Positions 18,875-25,129 of a stretch of DNA of 25,782 nt are shown here, piece after piece. The position numbers and the translations under genes are program-made. The DNA comes from a virus: IMG/VR virus record IMGVR_UViG_3300017773_000120, positions 1 to 25,782 of that record; one strand, written 5' to 3'. Each line of letters starts with the position of its first letter. The first letter of the stretch is position 1. Under the pieces are notes generated by a model. It ran no database searches. It was not told the origin of the DNA and worked only from the letters and a program-made list of their open reading frames with translations.

Positions 18875-19253
18875 ATTTAGATATACGTTTGAAAGTTTCC
18901 CACTTATATTGCTTAAATGGATTAGTACTGTTCATCTTGTGATAGCGACAAAACTCTATCCTGTCAAGCGGAAATGGTGCAAGTTCCATAAACTTACTAG
19001 ATAAATACTCAGGATTCCTGTGAGCTGCGTAGCATATGTGCCAGAACATGCCATCCTCATCTTCCTTGACCAAAGCTAGCAGTAAGTAATCGGGACCTCC
19101 GAAAAAATATTTCTGTTCGCCATTAGGGGAATTCACTATGTTGTTAAACAATGCAGCAAAGTCCTGACCCTGCGTATTGTACAGGACACATGCTTCATCG
19201 TACATCGACAACCTGTGGTCTTCACCAATTAAGACTTTTGACTTGGTACTCAT
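18858..19253 (-). CDS. Conserved-type hypothetical protein between terminase and portal
   Basis: This 131-aa, probably globular alpha/beta protein has aromatic and Cys-containing strands (GMFWHICYAAHRNPEYL, later RIEFCRYHKMN). The C-terminus is basic and aromatic (FKQYKWETFKRISKYGLFT). Podoviruses often carry a small GNAT-like protein (T7 gp13 type) in the structural region and this gene could be such a protein, but no acetyl-CoA binding motif is clear. It overlaps the end of the terminase gene by 32 bases, so it is co-translated with it. Function unknown. Confidence 0.7.
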   Translation of the reverse strand: MSTKSKVLIGEDHRLSMYDEACVLYNTQGQDFAALFNNIVNSPNGEQKYFFGGPDYLLLALVKEDEDGMFWHICYAAHRNPEYLSSKFMELAPFPLDRIEFCRYHKMNSTNPFKQYKWETFKRISKYGLFT

Positions 19254-20535
19254 TCGTTTGTTTGTGTTTGCTAAAGCTTGGTTGTTTTAATCCTACAGCC
19301 AGTGTACGGAATGCGTCAGCTCCGTGAGAGTTCTTATCGTGGACAGGTGTCTTACGAAAAACTCCTCGACTAGAATCAAACTCTTTGTGGTAACCCTTGA
19401 GTGCTTCAAGTCCTGCGTAGCATCCATCCTTTGCAAACCAGCAACGGTTTAAGATATTACGCACGGCTTCAATGCCATCAATGATCGCCAGCTTCTTTAC
19501 TGTTACAAATTTTAAACCTAGACCTCTGGCAGTCTCAAGTCGTGACTTACCAGTTCCTAACTCACGTACCTTAATATCGTGCGGTGCGTAGTGTTTGCCG
19601 TAGGTCACGTCTTTCTGATTAGACCACACATGTAAGTATCTTGCATAGTGGGGTAATCCTTCTCCACTGTTCTCGTAGTAGTGTACTACACGGATCTCAT
19701 TCTTGAACAGCTGGACAAACCAAATGGTAGTAGCGTCATCCATTCCCAAGTCCCACGCCGTGTGAACTGGCAACATCGGATCTACTGCAATTGTATCCAT
19801 CACACGTTTCTCCTTGTAAGCCTTGTTGATCTGCGCTCCGTAGTACGCGCCCTCGACTGGAGTCTTGAACGAACACATGTACTCCGATTGAAAGCGTGCT
19901 TCGTTGTTCAGTTCGTTTCGAGCTTTACGAAGTTCATCGGCAGGTATCACCTTTGTGTCTTTGACCGACAGGTGACTACTATACCAGTCACCCTCCGACT
20001 GAGCTCGCAGTAGTACTTTGTAGAAATGGTTCTCGCCACGTGGCGTTCCATTAAACAATGCCCAGCCTCCGTTCTCCGCAAGAATCGGATTGATTAACTG
20101 CCACGCAGACGGATCTGAAATACTATACTCAGAGAATACTACGCCGATTGGATTCGCTCCCACCATTTTATCTGGGTCGTCAGATCCCATCAGTTGAATG
20201 ACTGAGCCATTCTTCAGGTGAATACGCATCTCCTGTTCGCTCTTCTTCTCAACTACCTCCTTGGGGAAGTAGTCAATAAACTTCTTACCCTCACCTGTCA
20301 TACCATTCCAGACAATACGTCGGGCTTGGTTGGCATACGGTAAAACATACCAGTACGTGCCAACACGTTGGAATGCTTTGATCGCCATGATATTGACGCA
20401 CGTCAAATCTTTCCCAGCACGTCGATGCCATGCGACTACCGCACGTAACGACCGTTTCTTCTGAGACATATACTTCAGTAGCGGAAGCTGATACGGTCTC
20501 GGCTCCCAACCCTGTGCAGGTATTCTAACACTCAT
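19222..20535 (-). CDS. terL: Terminase large subunit
   Basis: This 437-aa motor and nuclease packages DNA into the prohead. The ATPase domain shows a Walker A-like WHRRAGKD at 36-43 and a Walker B strand with acidic end, IGVVFSEYS at 130-138, followed by the coupling motif region FNGTPRG (161-167). The nuclease domain of RNase H fold has candidate metal-binding aspartates D262 (AWDLGMDD), D320 (YAPHDIKV) and D407 (SHGADAFR). The length is shorter than T7 gp19 (586 aa). Its position upstream of the portal differs from T7, where terminase genes close the operon. The start overlaps the preceding gene by 11 bases. Confidence 0.95.
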   Translation of the reverse strand: MSVRIPAQGWEPRPYQLPLLKYMSQKKRSLRAVVAWHRRAGKDLTCVNIMAIKAFQRVGTYWYVLPYANQARRIVWNGMTGEGKKFIDYFPKEVVEKKSEQEMRIHLKNGSVIQLMGSDDPDKMVGANPIGVVFSEYSISDPSAWQLINPILAENGGWALFNGTPRGENHFYKVLLRAQSEGDWYSSHLSVKDTKVIPADELRKARNELNNEARFQSEYMCSFKTPVEGAYYGAQINKAYKEKRVMDTIAVDPMLPVHTAWDLGMDDATTIWFVQLFKNEIRVVHYYENSGEGLPHYARYLHVWSNQKDVTYGKHYAPHDIKVRELGTGKSRLETARGLGLKFVTVKKLAIIDGIEAVRNILNRCWFAKDGCYAGLEALKGYHKEFDSSRGVFRKTPVHDKNSHGADAFRTLAVGLKQPSFSKHKQTNEYQVKSLNW

Positions 20536-20791
20536 CTATTTCTTCATCATCCTCATCGTCCTTCACTTCTTCCCATTCCCACTCATCGTCTTCGTGGATT
20601 GCTGTAGTGCCTCCAGCTAGATAAGTGTCGTGGTATTGTAGTGCTGATTTTAATAATCCTTGTGCTGCGTAAGGGTCACTGAACCTCACGTCATATGCTA
20701 AGGGGTCTTCATCGTCAGACGCAATGATCACATAGTTGCGGAAATGTTCCCCAAGTATCGCCTGTGCATCTGAGATTGGTTCGTTGCTCAT
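20525..20791 (-). CDS. Small acidic hypothetical protein
   Basis: This 88-aa protein has an extremely acidic C-terminus (residues about 66-88, with DDEWEWEEVKDDEDDEE). The N-terminal half looks globular, with VIIASDDEDPLAYDVRFSDPYAAQGLL. It is encoded between the two terminase candidates, overlapping the small subunit gene by 4 bases (ATGA) and the large subunit gene by 11. It may assist packaging, but no family is recognised. Confidence 0.7.
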   Translation of the reverse strand: MSNEPISDAQAILGEHFRNYVIIASDDEDPLAYDVRFSDPYAAQGLLKSALQYHDTYLAGGTTAIHEDDEWEWEEVKDDEDDEEIDEC

Positions 20792-21330
20792 GTTTGTTCT
20801 TCGTCACTTACAAACTCATCATAGTCTCCCTCATTGTCAATCACCTCCGCCTCAACTATGTCTTTTATCTGACTCTTAGATACAGCACTGTAGTCCACAG
20901 TCATGATCTTCATCTCGCCAGTTATGTTCTGTTGGACATCTACACTCTTCAACTTTGGCTGTGTGTAGCTCGCTAGTTCCTTCCAAATTGCTATTTTCTC
21001 TTTTACGGGAACTTCCTCGTCCTTTGTAAAACTCATCAACTCTTCAATGGGGTTGACTCCTCTATCAGCGAACATTGCAAGAAGTGCCTTACGTTGCTCA
21101 GCTGGAGTAGGGGCTCTGCTCATCATATCAAGAAACTGTTGCTTGATACCCAGATCCTTTTCGACCTTAGCTAACTCCTTCTGCGCATCTTTCATGTCTA
21201 CCTCAGCTTTCATTCGCTTACGATGACACCGAGATCTCTTCGCTGCCTGTTGCTTAATTACTTGCTTGGGAGTCTTCCCAGAAGCATACGTTCGTTTATC
21301 TGTTACTTTATCTTTCGTTTCGTCCACCAT
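20788..21330 (-). CDS. Probable terminase small subunit
   Basis: This 180-aa protein has a basic N-terminus (KQVIKQQAAKRSRCHRKRMK), a long helical region at about 45-110, then the segment EKIAIWKELASYTQPKLKSV followed by an acidic tail. A KYxxPKLK-type segment preceding a short beta region (DVQQNITGEMKIM) is common in small terminase or DNA-packaging proteins that sit directly before terL. It is the first gene of the leftward operon. A weak promoter-like sequence lies immediately upstream, leaving almost no leader. The call rests on position and helical layout; no enzymatic motif is expected. Confidence 0.65.
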   Translation of the reverse strand: MVDETKDKVTDKRTYASGKTPKQVIKQQAAKRSRCHRKRMKAEVDMKDAQKELAKVEKDLGIKQQFLDMMSRAPTPAEQRKALLAMFADRGVNPIEELMSFTKDEEVPVKEKIAIWKELASYTQPKLKSVDVQQNITGEMKIMTVDYSAVSKSQIKDIVEAEVIDNEGDYDEFVSDEEQT

Positions 21331-21333
21331 TTA

Positions 21334-21363
21334 CATATAGAATCCTTCCATACGCTGTGTCAA
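21334..21363 (-). promoter_or_regulatory. Candidate sigma-70-like promoter of the leftward structural operon
   Basis: On the minus strand a perfect TTGACA (21363-21358) is followed after 18 bases by TATATG (21339-21334). The ATG of the first gene begins only 3 bases beyond it, so transcription from this promoter would start at or just inside the gene and give a leaderless message. The -10 match is weak, so the call is tentative. The iteron-like repeats lie directly behind it. Confidence 0.4.
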
Positions 21364-21375
21364 CTTAAAACAGGA

Positions 21376-21625
21376 TGGAACACTTGGTACACCTATGGAA
21401 CACTTTTTTCGGGGGGGTGTACCCAATTCTATTATATGATTATTAAGGACTTACAGAATCTGGTACACTTGGTACACTTTTTTCTGGGAAAATTTTATTT
21501 TTTATTTTTTTGTCTAGAAAAAGCGTACCTTCTGTTCCATATTTCATAAGTCGTTGATAAAGCTACAGACTTATAACATTCAAAAGTGTACCAAAAGGTG
21601 TGTCCAAGGTGTACCAAGTGTACCA
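21376..21625. repeat. Array of about ten 9-bp repeats TGGWACACY in facing clusters
   Basis: Forward-oriented copies are at 21376-21384, 21385-21393, 21396-21404, 21461-21469 and 21470-21478. Inverted copies (AGTGTACCA and GGTGTACCA types) are at 21416-21424, 21585-21593, 21597-21606 (degenerate, one base longer), 21608-21616 and 21617-21625. Several are directly tandem. Between the clusters lies an A/T-rich stretch. The arrangement matches an iteron-type replication origin or a multi-site operator for a phage regulator, placed at the divergence of the two transcription blocks. No coding frame here looks real: the frames translate the repeat itself. Confidence 0.8.
21479..21530. other. A/T-rich core between the repeat clusters (possible unwinding element)
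   Basis: A run of T- and A-rich sequence (TTTTTTCTGGG, then long T tracts interrupted by A) spans about 50 bases between the forward and inverted repeat clusters. In iteron origins such a segment is where the duplex opens. This role is inferred from position and composition only. Confidence 0.35.
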
Positions 21626-21639
21626 CAATTGTCTCTTTT

Positions 21640-21984
21640 GGACTACAACTACCATAACACCCCCTGAATCTGTTGAGCATTATCCCCCAAATTCCTGAAA
21701 ACTGAAAATTGGATACGCAGGTAGGGACTCCTTGTGTGTCCCGATTCGTGAGCCCCCCATGCCCCCCCCCATGTTCATGTGCCGTGCCACATGTTCGGGG
21801 ATTCACAGTACATCGTAGCCTTCAGCCTAATCCACATGCACCTCAAGTCCCCCCGATCATTACTCACGCAACCTGCGGAGGATAAATCGTTGGGCTAGAG
21901 GAGCTTACAGGACATATGCTACACCATACACGACTGACGCACGATGACATACCCTATCGACACGCAAGAGACCAAAAAAACCCA
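21640..21984. other. Gene-free, C-rich stretch of the control region
   Basis: No convincing gene was found. The plus strand holds unusual cytosine runs (six C at 21753-21758 and nine C at 21762-21770). It also has a hairpin, CATGTG (21776-21781) with CACATG (21788-21793), inside an outer CCCC/GGGG pair (21767-21770 with 21797-21800). A smaller GGGAC/GTCCC pair lies at 21724-21742. Frames crossing this region lack starts with convincing context and have low-complexity translations. It may be part of the origin or an untranslated RNA; the sequence does not decide. Confidence 0.5.
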
Positions 21985-21987
21985 CCC

Positions 21988-22017
21988 AAAAAGAACCGAG
22001 GGCTGTTGCCAACCCTC
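21988..22017 (-). terminator. Terminator of the left-arm (decayed) gene
   Basis: On the minus strand GAGGGTTG (22017-22010) pairs with CAGCCCTC (22005-21998) around a GCAA loop. GGTTC and five U residues (21992-21988) follow. It is the inverted counterpart of the terminator at 22595-22630, with which it shares a 20-base identical core. Confidence 0.75.
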
Positions 22018-22028
22018 CACCTCATGGC

Positions 22029-22253
22029 TTATCCGACGACAAACGCCTCGGGGGTCGTTCAAACCCAAACGATTGTCTCGGCTCTCACCTGTTATCCGCA
22101 ATGCTTGTAGTGGCTCCCACCCCAAGTCCTTGTGGTAGTTCGCACCGTCCTCGTCACGGAGGTCTGAGATGATCGTCGCTGCATTGGCTGATTGCAGGAC
22201 ATAACAAATGCTGTCGGGCGTTCTGGGCACGGCTGTCTTGGACATTTGCTCAT
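22029..22253 (-). pseudogene. Frameshifted inverted copy of the 76-aa gene
   Basis: Read from ATG at 22253, the first frame gives MSKCPRQPCPERPTAF then VMSCNQP, matching the intact copy at VMSCNQP. Homology then moves to another frame (DLRDEDGANYHK against VLRNEEGDYHK), back again (WGGSHYK against WGGTHYK) and to a third stretch (ETIVWV, stop, PEAFVVG against ETIVWENGHPDAFIVG). At least three indels and one in-frame stop therefore separate the segments. A 108-residue frame crosses the region starting at 22245, but it matches the intact protein only in the middle and runs past the terminator, so it is probably not a genuine product. The intact homologue is at 22357-22587. Confidence 0.75.
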
Positions 22254-22286
22254 ATTGCTATTTTATCGGAACCTTGGTTTTTTTGA

Positions 22287-22318
22287 CAGATGTGCCAGCA
22301 GAGCTGTGAGCACATCTG
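22287..22318. repeat. Central palindrome of the inverted duplication
   Basis: CAGATGTGC (22287-22295) and GCACATCTG (22310-22318) form a perfect 9-base inverted repeat. Inside it CAGC (22296-22299) and GCTG (22303-22306) pair around AGA, leaving TGA unpaired. The whole could extrude as a cruciform or be a dimeric protein's binding site between two divergent genes. CGATAAAATA elements lie on both sides, about 24-35 bases out, and may be part of facing promoters. Confidence 0.75.
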
Positions 22319-22356
22319 CTCAAAAAGAACCAAGAACCACGATAAAATAACACAAT

Positions 22357-22587
22357 ATGCCAAAAGTAACCAAAGACAAACCCGCACCTCAGATCACCTC
22401 GTCAGCATGGATTGTTATGTCCTGCAATCAGCCAAAAGGCATGGACGATTACATCACAGTCCTCCGCAACGAGGAAGGTGACTACCATAAGGCTTGGGGC
22501 GGAACCCACTACAAGCGCGGAATAACGGTGACAGTCGAGACAATCGTTTGGGAGAACGGTCACCCCGACGCGTTCATCGTCGGATAA
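22357..22587 (+). CDS. 76-aa protein of unknown function, intact member of an inverted pair
   Basis: The protein contains ITSSAWIVMSCNQPKGMDDY, then VLRNEEGDYHKAWGG, then ETIVWENGHPDAFIVG, a compact alpha/beta pattern without an obvious family. ATG follows GATAAAATAACACAAT with no Shine-Dalgarno sequence. Its stop is 7 bases before a strong terminator, so it is a self-contained unit. A degraded inverted copy lies on the other side of the central palindrome. Comparison of the copies shows that many aligned differences fall where the amino acid is kept (YHK, WGG, ETIVW), which supports this frame as the true one. Function unknown. Confidence 0.7.
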   Translation: MPKVTKDKPAPQITSSAWIVMSCNQPKGMDDYITVLRNEEGDYHKAWGGTHYKRGITVTVETIVWENGHPDAFIVG

Positions 22588-22594
22588 GCTCATC

Positions 22595-22630
22595 GAGCTG
22601 GGGGTTGGCAACAGCCCTCGGCTCTTTTTT
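22595..22630 (+). terminator. Strong intrinsic terminator after the 76-aa gene
   Basis: GAGCTGGGGGTTG (22595-22607) pairs along 13 bases, with G-U wobbles, with CAGCCCTCGGCTC (22612-22624) around a GCAA tetraloop, followed by six U residues (22625-22630). Confidence 0.92.
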
Positions 22631-22665
22631 CCGCCACACACAAACAAAAAAAGAAACCAATATAT

Positions 22666-22680
22666 ACCAATATATACTAT
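22666..22680 (+). promoter_or_regulatory. Start-codon motif ACCAATATATACTAT, copy 1
   Basis: This is the first of four identical 15-base copies. Here it is preceded by a partial tandem copy (ACCAATATATA, 22656-22666) and lies 7 bases before ATG at 22688. Whether it is a promoter element or a translation signal is undecided; the A/T-rich TATACT core could be a -10 box. Confidence 0.7.
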
Positions 22681-22687
22681 AAATAAC

Positions 22688-22831
22688 ATGGAAACAGTAA
22701 TCAACATCATAACATTAGTACTAACAATAACAGCAACGCTAGGATTTATTATCGCAGTGTATGCATCGTATCTCATTATTACCTTCAATCGTGAACACAA
22801 GAAGTTCATATCCAAACACGAAATCAAATAA
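22688..22831 (+). CDS. 47-aa single-pass membrane protein
   Basis: The short frame METVINIITL... carries one long hydrophobic segment (about residues 4-32, with LVLTITATLGFIIAVYASYL) and a basic C-terminal tail (FNREHKKFISKHEIK). It is the first of three similar tiny membrane proteins in a row, each with an N-terminal helix and a Lys-rich cytoplasmic-type tail. The start is supported by the repeated leader motif 7 bases upstream. Possible roles include modifying the host membrane or blocking superinfection, but nothing specific is recognised. Confidence 0.65.
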   Translation: METVINIITLVLTITATLGFIIAVYASYLIITFNREHKKFISKHEIK

Positions 22832-23044: not shown

Positions 23045-23052
23045 CCCCCAAA

Positions 23053-23067
23053 ACCAATATATACTAT
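23053..23067 (+). promoter_or_regulatory. Start-codon motif ACCAATATATACTAT, copy 3
   Basis: The last two bases of the motif are the first two of the ATG at 23066, so the motif abuts and overlaps the start codon. Confidence 0.7.
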
Positions 23068-23167
23068 GTTAGAAATAATCGCATTAATATTACTCATATC
23101 TTACGTCACAACCTTCGTGGGGATGTTCGTGTACCTTTATGTTAAACTCTCTAAGTTAATCAAATAA
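23066..23167 (+). CDS. 33-aa membrane peptide
   Basis: MLEIIALILLISYVTTFVGM and the following FVYLYV make up an almost entirely hydrophobic helix, with a short basic end (KLSKLIK). It would be too small for confident calling alone, but the conserved leader motif at both ends of the frame and the similar layout of its neighbours support translation. Confidence 0.6.
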   Translation: MLEIIALILLISYVTTFVGMFVYLYVKLSKLIK

Positions 23168-23182
23168 ACCAATATATACTAT
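23168..23182 (+). promoter_or_regulatory. Start-codon motif ACCAATATATACTAT, copy 4
   Basis: The motif starts directly after the stop of the 33-aa gene and overlaps ATG at 23181 by two bases, so it fills the entire space between the two genes. Confidence 0.7.
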
Positions 23183-23351
23183 GGAAAATATAATCATAAC
23201 TATTCTTGCAATGTTCACAGCATTCCTAATATTCGGATGTTTTGTTACGTCATGGTTGTTCATCAAACAAGCGTGGAACGAACATCAATTCGAAAAACGT
23301 GTACGCGAAACTAAAAAGTTTCAAGAAATGCTTAAAAAAGTTAAACTCTAA
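23181..23351 (+). CDS. 56-aa membrane protein with basic coiled tail
   Basis: An N-terminal hydrophobic helix (about residues 4-28, IIITILAMFTAFLIFGCF onward) is followed by a highly charged helical tail (FEKRVRETKKFQEMLKKVKL). This single-anchor topology is the same as in the 47-aa protein upstream, suggesting duplicated or functionally similar genes. No family recognised. Confidence 0.65.
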   Translation: MENIIITILAMFTAFLIFGCFVTSWLFIKQAWNEHQFEKRVRETKKFQEMLKKVKL

Positions 23352-23364
23352 ACAAATAATTTAT

Positions 23365-23414
23365 ACCCGTAATAGCACGAGCCCCGTTGGGGTGTAGCTC
23401 GTGCTAATACGGGT
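23365..23414 (+). promoter_or_regulatory. Large near-perfect hairpin upstream of the 310-aa gene
   Basis: The arms ACCCGTAATAGCACGAGC (23365-23382) and GCTCGTGCTAATACGGGT (23397-23414) pair along 18 bases with a single A-A mismatch. Inside, CCC and GGG pair further around GTT. No U-tract follows, so it is not a typical terminator; an RNase III processing site, mRNA-stabilising structure or operator is more likely. The gene starts 27 bases later. Confidence 0.85.
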
Positions 23415-23441
23415 TACAAATTCACATCAACACAAACACAT

Positions 23442-24374
23442 ATGTACAATAAAGACTATATCTCATCACTAATAACTGATATCCACAATACCGAACGGTA
23501 TTCTGTTGAAAACAAAATGCTCTGGCGCAATCTGTACTCATCGGCTCGTCAACACGCTAAACACCTGCAACGCGACACTGCAGATACAGTGTTCGAACGT
23601 GAGCCTGACGACACAATGGTTCAGATAATCGTTGATCAATGGCTTGCTGATAACGAATCCAGTTATCAAGCTCATTCCAATCCCAACGATGACAAGCAAG
23701 CTGGTGACATGTCATGTGTACAAGCTATGGAAAGCAAAGCCAAACAAGATGCCATCGACGCCATCCAAGAGATATTCGGCGAAACCAGCTTCGACAACGA
23801 ACTACGCATTACTGTTCGCGAACGTATCTACGATCAAGTTGCTGGCTCATCCCCACGACTTGCTGAGTTCCTACGTCACGCATCTGACCAATGGTTGTCA
23901 GATAACGCAACTGAAATAGTAGACAAATCAATCAAATACACTAGTTGCGATATCACAACCTATATCGATTACGGTCAACAACACGAACGTACCAACATAT
24001 CGTTCTTCGAACATGATTCGCTTGACCAAGCTGATCAACAGGCTATACAACGTGAGTACGATGAATCGTTCTATCAATCACCTGAATGTGATCCTGACAA
24101 TGCACGTTACATCGGCACACCACCCAAATCAGATAGCTGGGATGACAAAATGAAATCCGATTACACCGACCTTGGACGTGGAGCTGAGGGTGTGCTTGGT
24201 GGCTTGTACACCAACACACGTCCCGAACCAACCTATCGTACACCTGATCAAAAGCGCACGTTACGTAAGACATTGCTGTCCAGCGATAGTCATGCGGATC
24301 GTATGCTCGGTGTGTATATGGTAGTTGGTAACAACTCAGAAGCACGTCAACGCCTCAAAAAACGAATCAAATAA
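23442..24374 (+). CDS. 310-aa protein of unknown function with a repeated DQWLxDN element
   Basis: This acidic, mostly helical protein has no membrane segment or signal peptide. DQWLADN at 65-71 and DQWLSDN at 149-155 sit at the ends of similar helical segments (DTADTVFEREPDDTMVQIIV and the region from VRERIYDQVAG to FLRHAS), which suggests an internal duplication of a roughly 85-residue unit. The C-terminus is basic (ARQRLKKRIK). No catalytic motif was found. It lies behind a strong hairpin and is followed after one base by a membrane protein gene. It is the longest gene on the plus strand here, but its function is unknown. Confidence 0.85.
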   Translation: MYNKDYISSLITDIHNTERYSVENKMLWRNLYSSARQHAKHLQRDTADTVFEREPDDTMVQIIVDQWLADNESSYQAHSNPNDDKQAGDMSCVQAMESKAKQDAIDAIQEIFGETSFDNELRITVRERIYDQVAGSSPRLAEFLRHASDQWLSDNATEIVDKSIKYTSCDITTYIDYGQQHERTNISFFEHDSLDQADQQAIQREYDESFYQSPECDPDNARYIGTPPKSDSWDDKMKSDYTDLGRGAEGVLGGLYTNTRPEPTYRTPDQKRTLRKTLLSSDSHADRMLGVYMVVGNNSEARQRLKKRIK

Positions 24375-24826: not shown

Positions 24827-25129
24827 ATGGATTTAGATTTAGATAAAGCACTCAACTTACTCAGTCCAATGGAGCGTAACATTCTATACTTACGCTACGG
24901 TCTTGACAATGGTAATCCACAAACATTGGAAGACATTGGTGCAGAGTATGGTATTACTCGTGAACGTATACGTCAGCTCGAAGCCAAAGCATTACGTAAG
25001 CTTCGTCAACCTGACATGGTTCGCATCATCATCAAACATGTAGACAGCCTCCCCGTACAAGACGAGGAGGCTGAACACAACAACAATACGAATGATAACA
25101 ATAAACAACACCGAGTGGATGGGTTGTAA
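24827..25129 (+). CDS. Stand-alone sigma-70 region 4 protein (transcription regulator)
   Basis: This is a 100-aa protein. Residues about 11-62 match region 4 of primary sigma factors very closely: LSPMERNILYLRYGLDNG, then TLEDIGAEYGITRERIRQLE and AKALRKLRQP, including the helix-turn-helix that reads the -35 box. Regions 2 and 3 are absent, so it cannot act as an ordinary sigma factor. The C-terminus (from about 75) is acidic and Asn-rich with no structure. It could bind the RNA polymerase beta flap in place of, or together with, host sigma and redirect transcription to phage promoters, or act as a DNA-binding regulator. It is the likely transcription controller in this window. Confidence 0.9.
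   Translation: MDLDLDKALNLLSPMERNILYLRYGLDNGNPQTLEDIGAEYGITRERIRQLEAKALRKLRQPDMVRIIIKHVDSLPVQDEEAEHNNNTNDNNKQHRVDGL

Follow-up and report, generated by a model that had tools for sequence, protein, structure and literature searches.

An uncultured podovirus-like phage and many of its relatives probably carry, at the point where early and late genes diverge, a structured RNA of ~0.6-0.87 kb that is rod-shaped, comes from the minus strand and is antisense to the gene for a small OB-like protein, with which it is paired. The plus strand has a small early gene for a protein of 76 aa, predicted to be an OB-like beta-barrel; in the terS/terL (late-gene) direction, a long minus-strand RNA would be transcribed, fold back on itself over its entire length as a bulged rod and act as RNA. 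The 5' half of this RNA would be antisense to the gene, and its 3' half would be a non-coding arm in which compensatory changes preserve complementarity and specific bulges and internal loops break up the pairing. The proposal draws on fold, strand polarity, covariation and recurrent loops, as compared across related viral contigs.

Architecture of the inverted repeat

The stretch analysed (hereafter the window) is a 25.8-kb IMG/VR contig from an uncultured podovirus-like phage, in which portal and TerL are recognisable. Late genes are read leftward and small early genes rightward from 22357, with the inverted repeat sitting where the two sets diverge. A 180-aa ORF at 20788-21330, which no profile names, is presumed from its position to be terS. 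Self-matching in inverted orientation recovers 21988-22629 as an imperfect inverted repeat of 642 bases at 78% identity (E 5e-118), and local alignment of one arm against the other scores 283, where the maximum over 200 shuffles of one arm is 26. As the initial annotation had described, the repeat contains a 24-base block of perfect identity (22184-22207 / 22412-22435), a central palindrome (22279-22295 pairing with 22310-22326) and mirrored outward terminators, all of which are present. The terminator stems (21988-22015 / 22602-22629) are 96% identical, and terminator-like sites lie on both strands and point outward.

The putative rod-shaped RNA, ~640 nt in the window, would occupy the minus strand of the whole repeat (21988-22629), running in the terS/terL direction and antisense to the 76-aa gene. 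The right arm (22309-22629), whose plus strand carries the protein gene as an intact ORF (22357-22587), would supply the 5' half of the RNA; the left arm (21988-22308, minus strand), a frame-broken complement of the right, would supply the 3' half. The predicted apical hairpin (22279-22326, minus strand) is a minimal apex, and relatives have larger conserved apical domains at the same place. An intrinsic-terminator-like site stands at the end of the protein gene (22595-22624, plus strand), and its mirrored counterpart (21998-22017, minus strand) would mark the 3' end of the RNA. A search for minus-strand promoters in the window and related loci gave no well-conserved one: sigma-70-like sites number 6 against 3.7 expected, and the weak candidate TTGATT-17-TATAGT (22676-22704, minus strand) is conserved too little to be claimed.

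The flanks of the repeat hold further recurrent sequences. At 21951-21958 (minus strand GATAGGGT), just past the rod, lies GATAGGGTG; most of the loci examined, among them one that has no rod (L004), conserve it on the minus strand a short distance beyond the rod, mostly ~20-80 nt downstream. To the right, CCAATATATACTA is found on the plus strand at 22658, 22668, 22839, 23055 and 23170, immediately 5' of successive small early ORFs, and no Shine-Dalgarno sequence was seen at these sites in the window; related loci have motifs resembling it, in L032 one of them as a tandem array. Further along, 24827-25129 (plus strand) encodes a 100-aa protein that has sigma-70 region 4 only (Pfam E 5.5e-19) and is possibly a phage transcription switch factor.

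Occurrence and exchange among related phages

Relatives were gathered by a TerL search of IMG/VR, which gave 80 loci; several are near-duplicates, and the counts that follow are not all independent. Self-BLAST found the mirror upstream of terS in 34 TerL-related loci, and of 43 loci whose upstream sequence was long enough, folding of the region showed a rod in 36. Precisely these 36 also have the 76-aa family, each with both arms, and the remaining seven (L004, L047, L055, L065, L070, L076 and L077) have neither gene nor rod. Single-copy relatives without a palindrome, the contrary case that the initial annotation had set for itself, were thus not encountered. In a forward test, six contigs were retrieved through the protein alone: all six have the mirror and a lower minus-strand fold energy, and five have the mismatch polarity described below. 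Altogether about 40 contigs carry the mirror cassette, with inferred rod lengths of 600-870 nt in relatives. Among cultured or annotated relatives, no such repeat was found in MW202510 (the late-gene half, L096) or in the whole records of BUCT708, ZP6 and Greip, and the replacement regions in two rod-less relatives have structured folds but no rod. The 50.8-kb contig of L051 (G002) bears structural genes at both ends, from two related phages, which suggests that a genome of roughly 41 kb was assembled as a chimera.

L003 matches the window at 99.1% identity over 19157-22049 and at 97.5% over 23049-24303, and both arms between these stretches differ; L004 is 97.3% identical to the window up to 21958 and then has no cassette. 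Since both arms changed at once in L003 and the cassette is missing from L004, phages seem to exchange or lose it whole, and such swapping among near-identical genomes suggests that it matters in competition, either among phages or with hosts.

A frame-broken arm matched to its own partner

Only the right copy of the gene keeps its frame, as first noted, and the claim that the left copy needs at least three frame changes is more than borne out by the 14 frame-breaking indels that separate the left CDS-equivalent in the window from the right gene. In relatives, too, the left arm is always frameshifted, a point that the initial annotation had proposed to check: at least four frame-breaking indels were counted in 35 of 35 loci measured, with a median of 12. 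A second functional protein in the left arm is ruled out by these counts; open frames across the left CDS-equivalent occur, by chance, in the window, L028 and L082 only. The right gene has a dN/dS of about 0.2 in relatives (medians of 0.16-0.25 in four groups), indicating purifying selection.

The description of the left copy as decayed did not hold, for it is broken in all relatives measured, yet it co-evolves with its own right arm. Identity between the left and right arms of one locus averages ~0.77 where the right arms of different loci stand at 0.57 (shuffled 0.59), and own identity exceeds cross identity in all 216 of the 216 locus pairs whose right arms are at background. Judged from these sequence comparisons, the left arm is probably no dying gene copy but the complementary half of a fold conserved on the minus strand. 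The earlier surmise that retention of the repeat implies a role for the nucleic acid itself has gained from this conservation and arm co-evolution in relatives.

Strand polarity, fold energy and covariation

Evidence for a fold specific to the minus strand is of several kinds. Firstly, mismatches between the arms have a direction. Counted at loci with diverged arms, which were aligned as DNA with no folding model, right A/left G outnumbers its reverse by 249 to 45 and right C/left T by 210 to 44, such that mismatches giving G.U on the minus strand number 459 against 89 in reverse; G.A and G.G on that strand also outnumber C.U and C.C. The observed polarity ratio is 5.2, where four-fold sites and local non-coding composition predict about 1.05-1.5. 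A neighbouring imperfect inverted repeat of ~250 bp (21376-21625, upstream of terS and 0.4 kb from the cassette), which holds many TGGTACACTT/AAGTGTACCA copies and is present in the window and most related loci, gives 167 against 108 in the same genomes, in the opposite direction. This opposite tendency makes regional strand-biased mutation an unlikely cause of the polarity, and base composition contradicts it as well. As the neighbouring repeat is without minus-strand polarity, it is more suggestive of a DNA-binding array, such as an operator or a packaging site. It is worth noting that nearly the same polarity in the cassette would also result if the minus strand folded as single-stranded DNA. 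Five rods (L006, L007, L028, L032 and L128), with arms about 88-93% identical, have no polarity (15 against 22 in four of the five, 3 against 5 in L128) and still have many bulges; recent re-copying of one arm in these five is possible.

Secondly, the minimum free energy of the minus strand lies below that of the plus strand in 34 of 35 rods. In the window, the minus strand folds into one near-continuous rod at -442.6 kcal/mol (z -42), and the plus strand reaches -408.3 kcal/mol (z -26). Thirdly, 69 of the 181 pairs in the consensus fold of 13 loci have compensatory changes, a count reached by 0 of 500 shuffles and compared with at most 15 in slid controls, and the window's own group has compensatory changes in 95 of 302 pairs, both counts being favourable to structure because the consensus was derived from the same alignments.

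Lastly, internal loops of the minus strand (GGAU bulges, CUU/UA, GAA/GUA and A/GUUAA) recur at matching positions in diverged rods, the A/GUUAA loop four times within one rod. Apices are of two kinds: type II is a conserved three-way junction, the sequence of which is found in nine viral contigs, eight from this set plus L108, which is cut near the contig end. Mirrored TTGACA-like boxes (CTCCACCTTGACAG / CTGTCAAGGTAG) occur in many apices and are absent from type II.

The 76-aa protein

AlphaFold2 predicts a five-strand all-beta barrel (pLDDT 86) for the protein, which is charged and predicted to be soluble. Ribosomal proteins and the OB domains of tRNA synthetases and RPA are among its top fold matches, of which none is significant at E<=0.001. 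Searches of Pfam and PHROG gave no match of note; Cpn10 (Pfam) is matched weakly by 5 of 21 family members (best E 0.0056), the window's protein being unmatched, and no credible match to the protein was found among 50,697 phage records and none in the genome collection. Nucleic-acid binding by the protein is plausible.

Possible functions and competing explanations

Tentatively, we regard the rod itself as the functional product, perhaps an RNP scaffold or a regulator that works together with the 76-aa protein; shutting off the early gene by antisense would be a side effect or an additional role. Such a shut-off would come when leftward transcription starts; an end-to-end paired rod is, however, a poor antisense agent, which favours the rod as product over simple antisense control. 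It is less likely that the cassette is a determinant of immunity or incompatibility, in which gene and self-complementary antisense rod RNA co-diversify as a swappable unit and the resident RNA hits only same-type relatives, or that it supplies the RNA of a gene-specific RNP.

The likeness of the arms might instead be mechanical, with gene conversion or quasipalindrome template-switching recopying one arm onto the other and no RNA or DNA fold under selection. Mutation by template-switching at quasipalindromes is known to occur (PMC7202029), and the five non-polar rods look as if they had recently been re-copied. We nonetheless consider this explanation improbable: it predicts neither the five-fold strand polarity, which the neighbouring inverted repeat lacks, nor the recurrence of loop sequences at matching positions, nor the conserved apical junction, and it should sometimes restore the left frame, which is broken at every one of the 35 loci.

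A further explanation, which we judge decidedly improbable, is that the fold works at the DNA level: a cruciform, or the single minus strand folded on itself, would be a replication origin or a signal for packaging or recombination where early and late genes diverge. Its location between divergent operons and beside terS fits a cis-acting DNA site, and G.T and G.A mismatches are favoured in folded DNA too. Against this, single-strand specificity demands a long ssDNA stage; seven related phages are entirely without the element, which is therefore not needed for origin or packaging function; terminator-like sites that face outward fit transcription; and it is the small adjacent repeat, with no polarity, that resembles a DNA-binding array.

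Very improbable, in our estimate, is an arrangement of two divergent units starting near the apex, the left one a sense-like decoy of the protein mRNA that competes for its regulator: the mirrored boxes of many apices and the outward-facing terminators would suit such units, but type II apices have no mirrored boxes, and local similarity would suffice for a decoy, leaving end-to-end complementarity with recurrent bulges unneeded. A plain inverted duplication with one decaying copy, which the broken left frame of the window would fit, or an assembly artefact, which the initial annotation had named as its other contrary case, is practically excluded, since about 40 contigs, many from independent samples, conserve an architecture whose arms co-evolve, and with arms 78% alike an MDA chimera is ruled out as well.

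Significance and comparison with known systems

A minus-strand rod RNA paired with a small protein gene is thus the reading we prefer. If it is true, a protein gene and a large structured RNA lie on opposite strands of the same DNA, and a dedicated non-coding arm evolves to stay complementary to coding sequence, which would provide a clean natural system to separate selection on protein from selection on RNA. The rods would constitute an unregistered large phage RNA family, one that intergenic-only searches would overlook, since a gene covers half of it, with the attendant warning that what passes for 'decayed inverted gene copies' in phage genomes may be arms of an RNA. At the gathering threshold, Rfam, with the GOLLD, ROOL and OLE families included, gave no match in the window and nine loci (tRNAs at the locus were covered through the Rfam scan only), and a relaxed scan of the locus gave a generic long-hairpin (microRNA) match and others, far under gathering scores. 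No description of this design was found in the literature searched, the coverage of which excludes most subscription papers.

The design is that of none of three comparable groups: GOLLD/ROOL, phage cis-antisense RNAs and obelisks. GOLLD and ROOL, the large ornate RNAs that phages and prophages encode, often in the vicinity of tRNA islands, form nanocages (PMC12286853). The putative rod is like them in being large (0.6-0.9 kb), extensively structured, phage-encoded and found by covariation. Whereas GOLLD and ROOL are multi-branched with pseudoknots and often lie near tRNAs, here the predicted fold is a single long bulged rod, capped by an apical hairpin or junction, which lies antisense to a protein gene and has terS/terL and small early ORFs as neighbours. 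Phage cis-antisense RNAs, such as c4 of P1/P7, sas of P22 and STnc6030 of BTP1 (786 nt), are sequence-specific and determine immunity or exclusion (PMC12197685). Similarly, the predicted minus-strand fold covers the whole 76-aa gene on the opposite strand, and STnc6030 is of similar length; c4, sas and STnc6030 pair with a target, whereas here the antisense half would pair with a dedicated, co-evolving complementary arm.

Obelisks are ~1-kb rod-like RNAs with an ORF, apparently circular replicons encoding Oblins, and are common in the ocean (PMC11922315, PMC13096302). The predicted fold is likewise rod-like over its whole length and overlaps a protein-coding frame; unlike obelisks, it lies within DNA phage contigs between phage operons, its protein is encoded opposite the rod strand, and that protein, a five-strand barrel, is not an Oblin by any match seen in the Pfam and PHROG searches. 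A fourth comparison is with type I toxin-antitoxin systems, the toxins of which are short hydrophobic (membrane) peptides. The cassette shares with these systems a small protein gene that lies opposite a cis-antisense RNA, here a putative one; it differs from them in that its protein is a charged, predicted soluble beta-barrel and in its self-complementary arm, which is without counterpart there.
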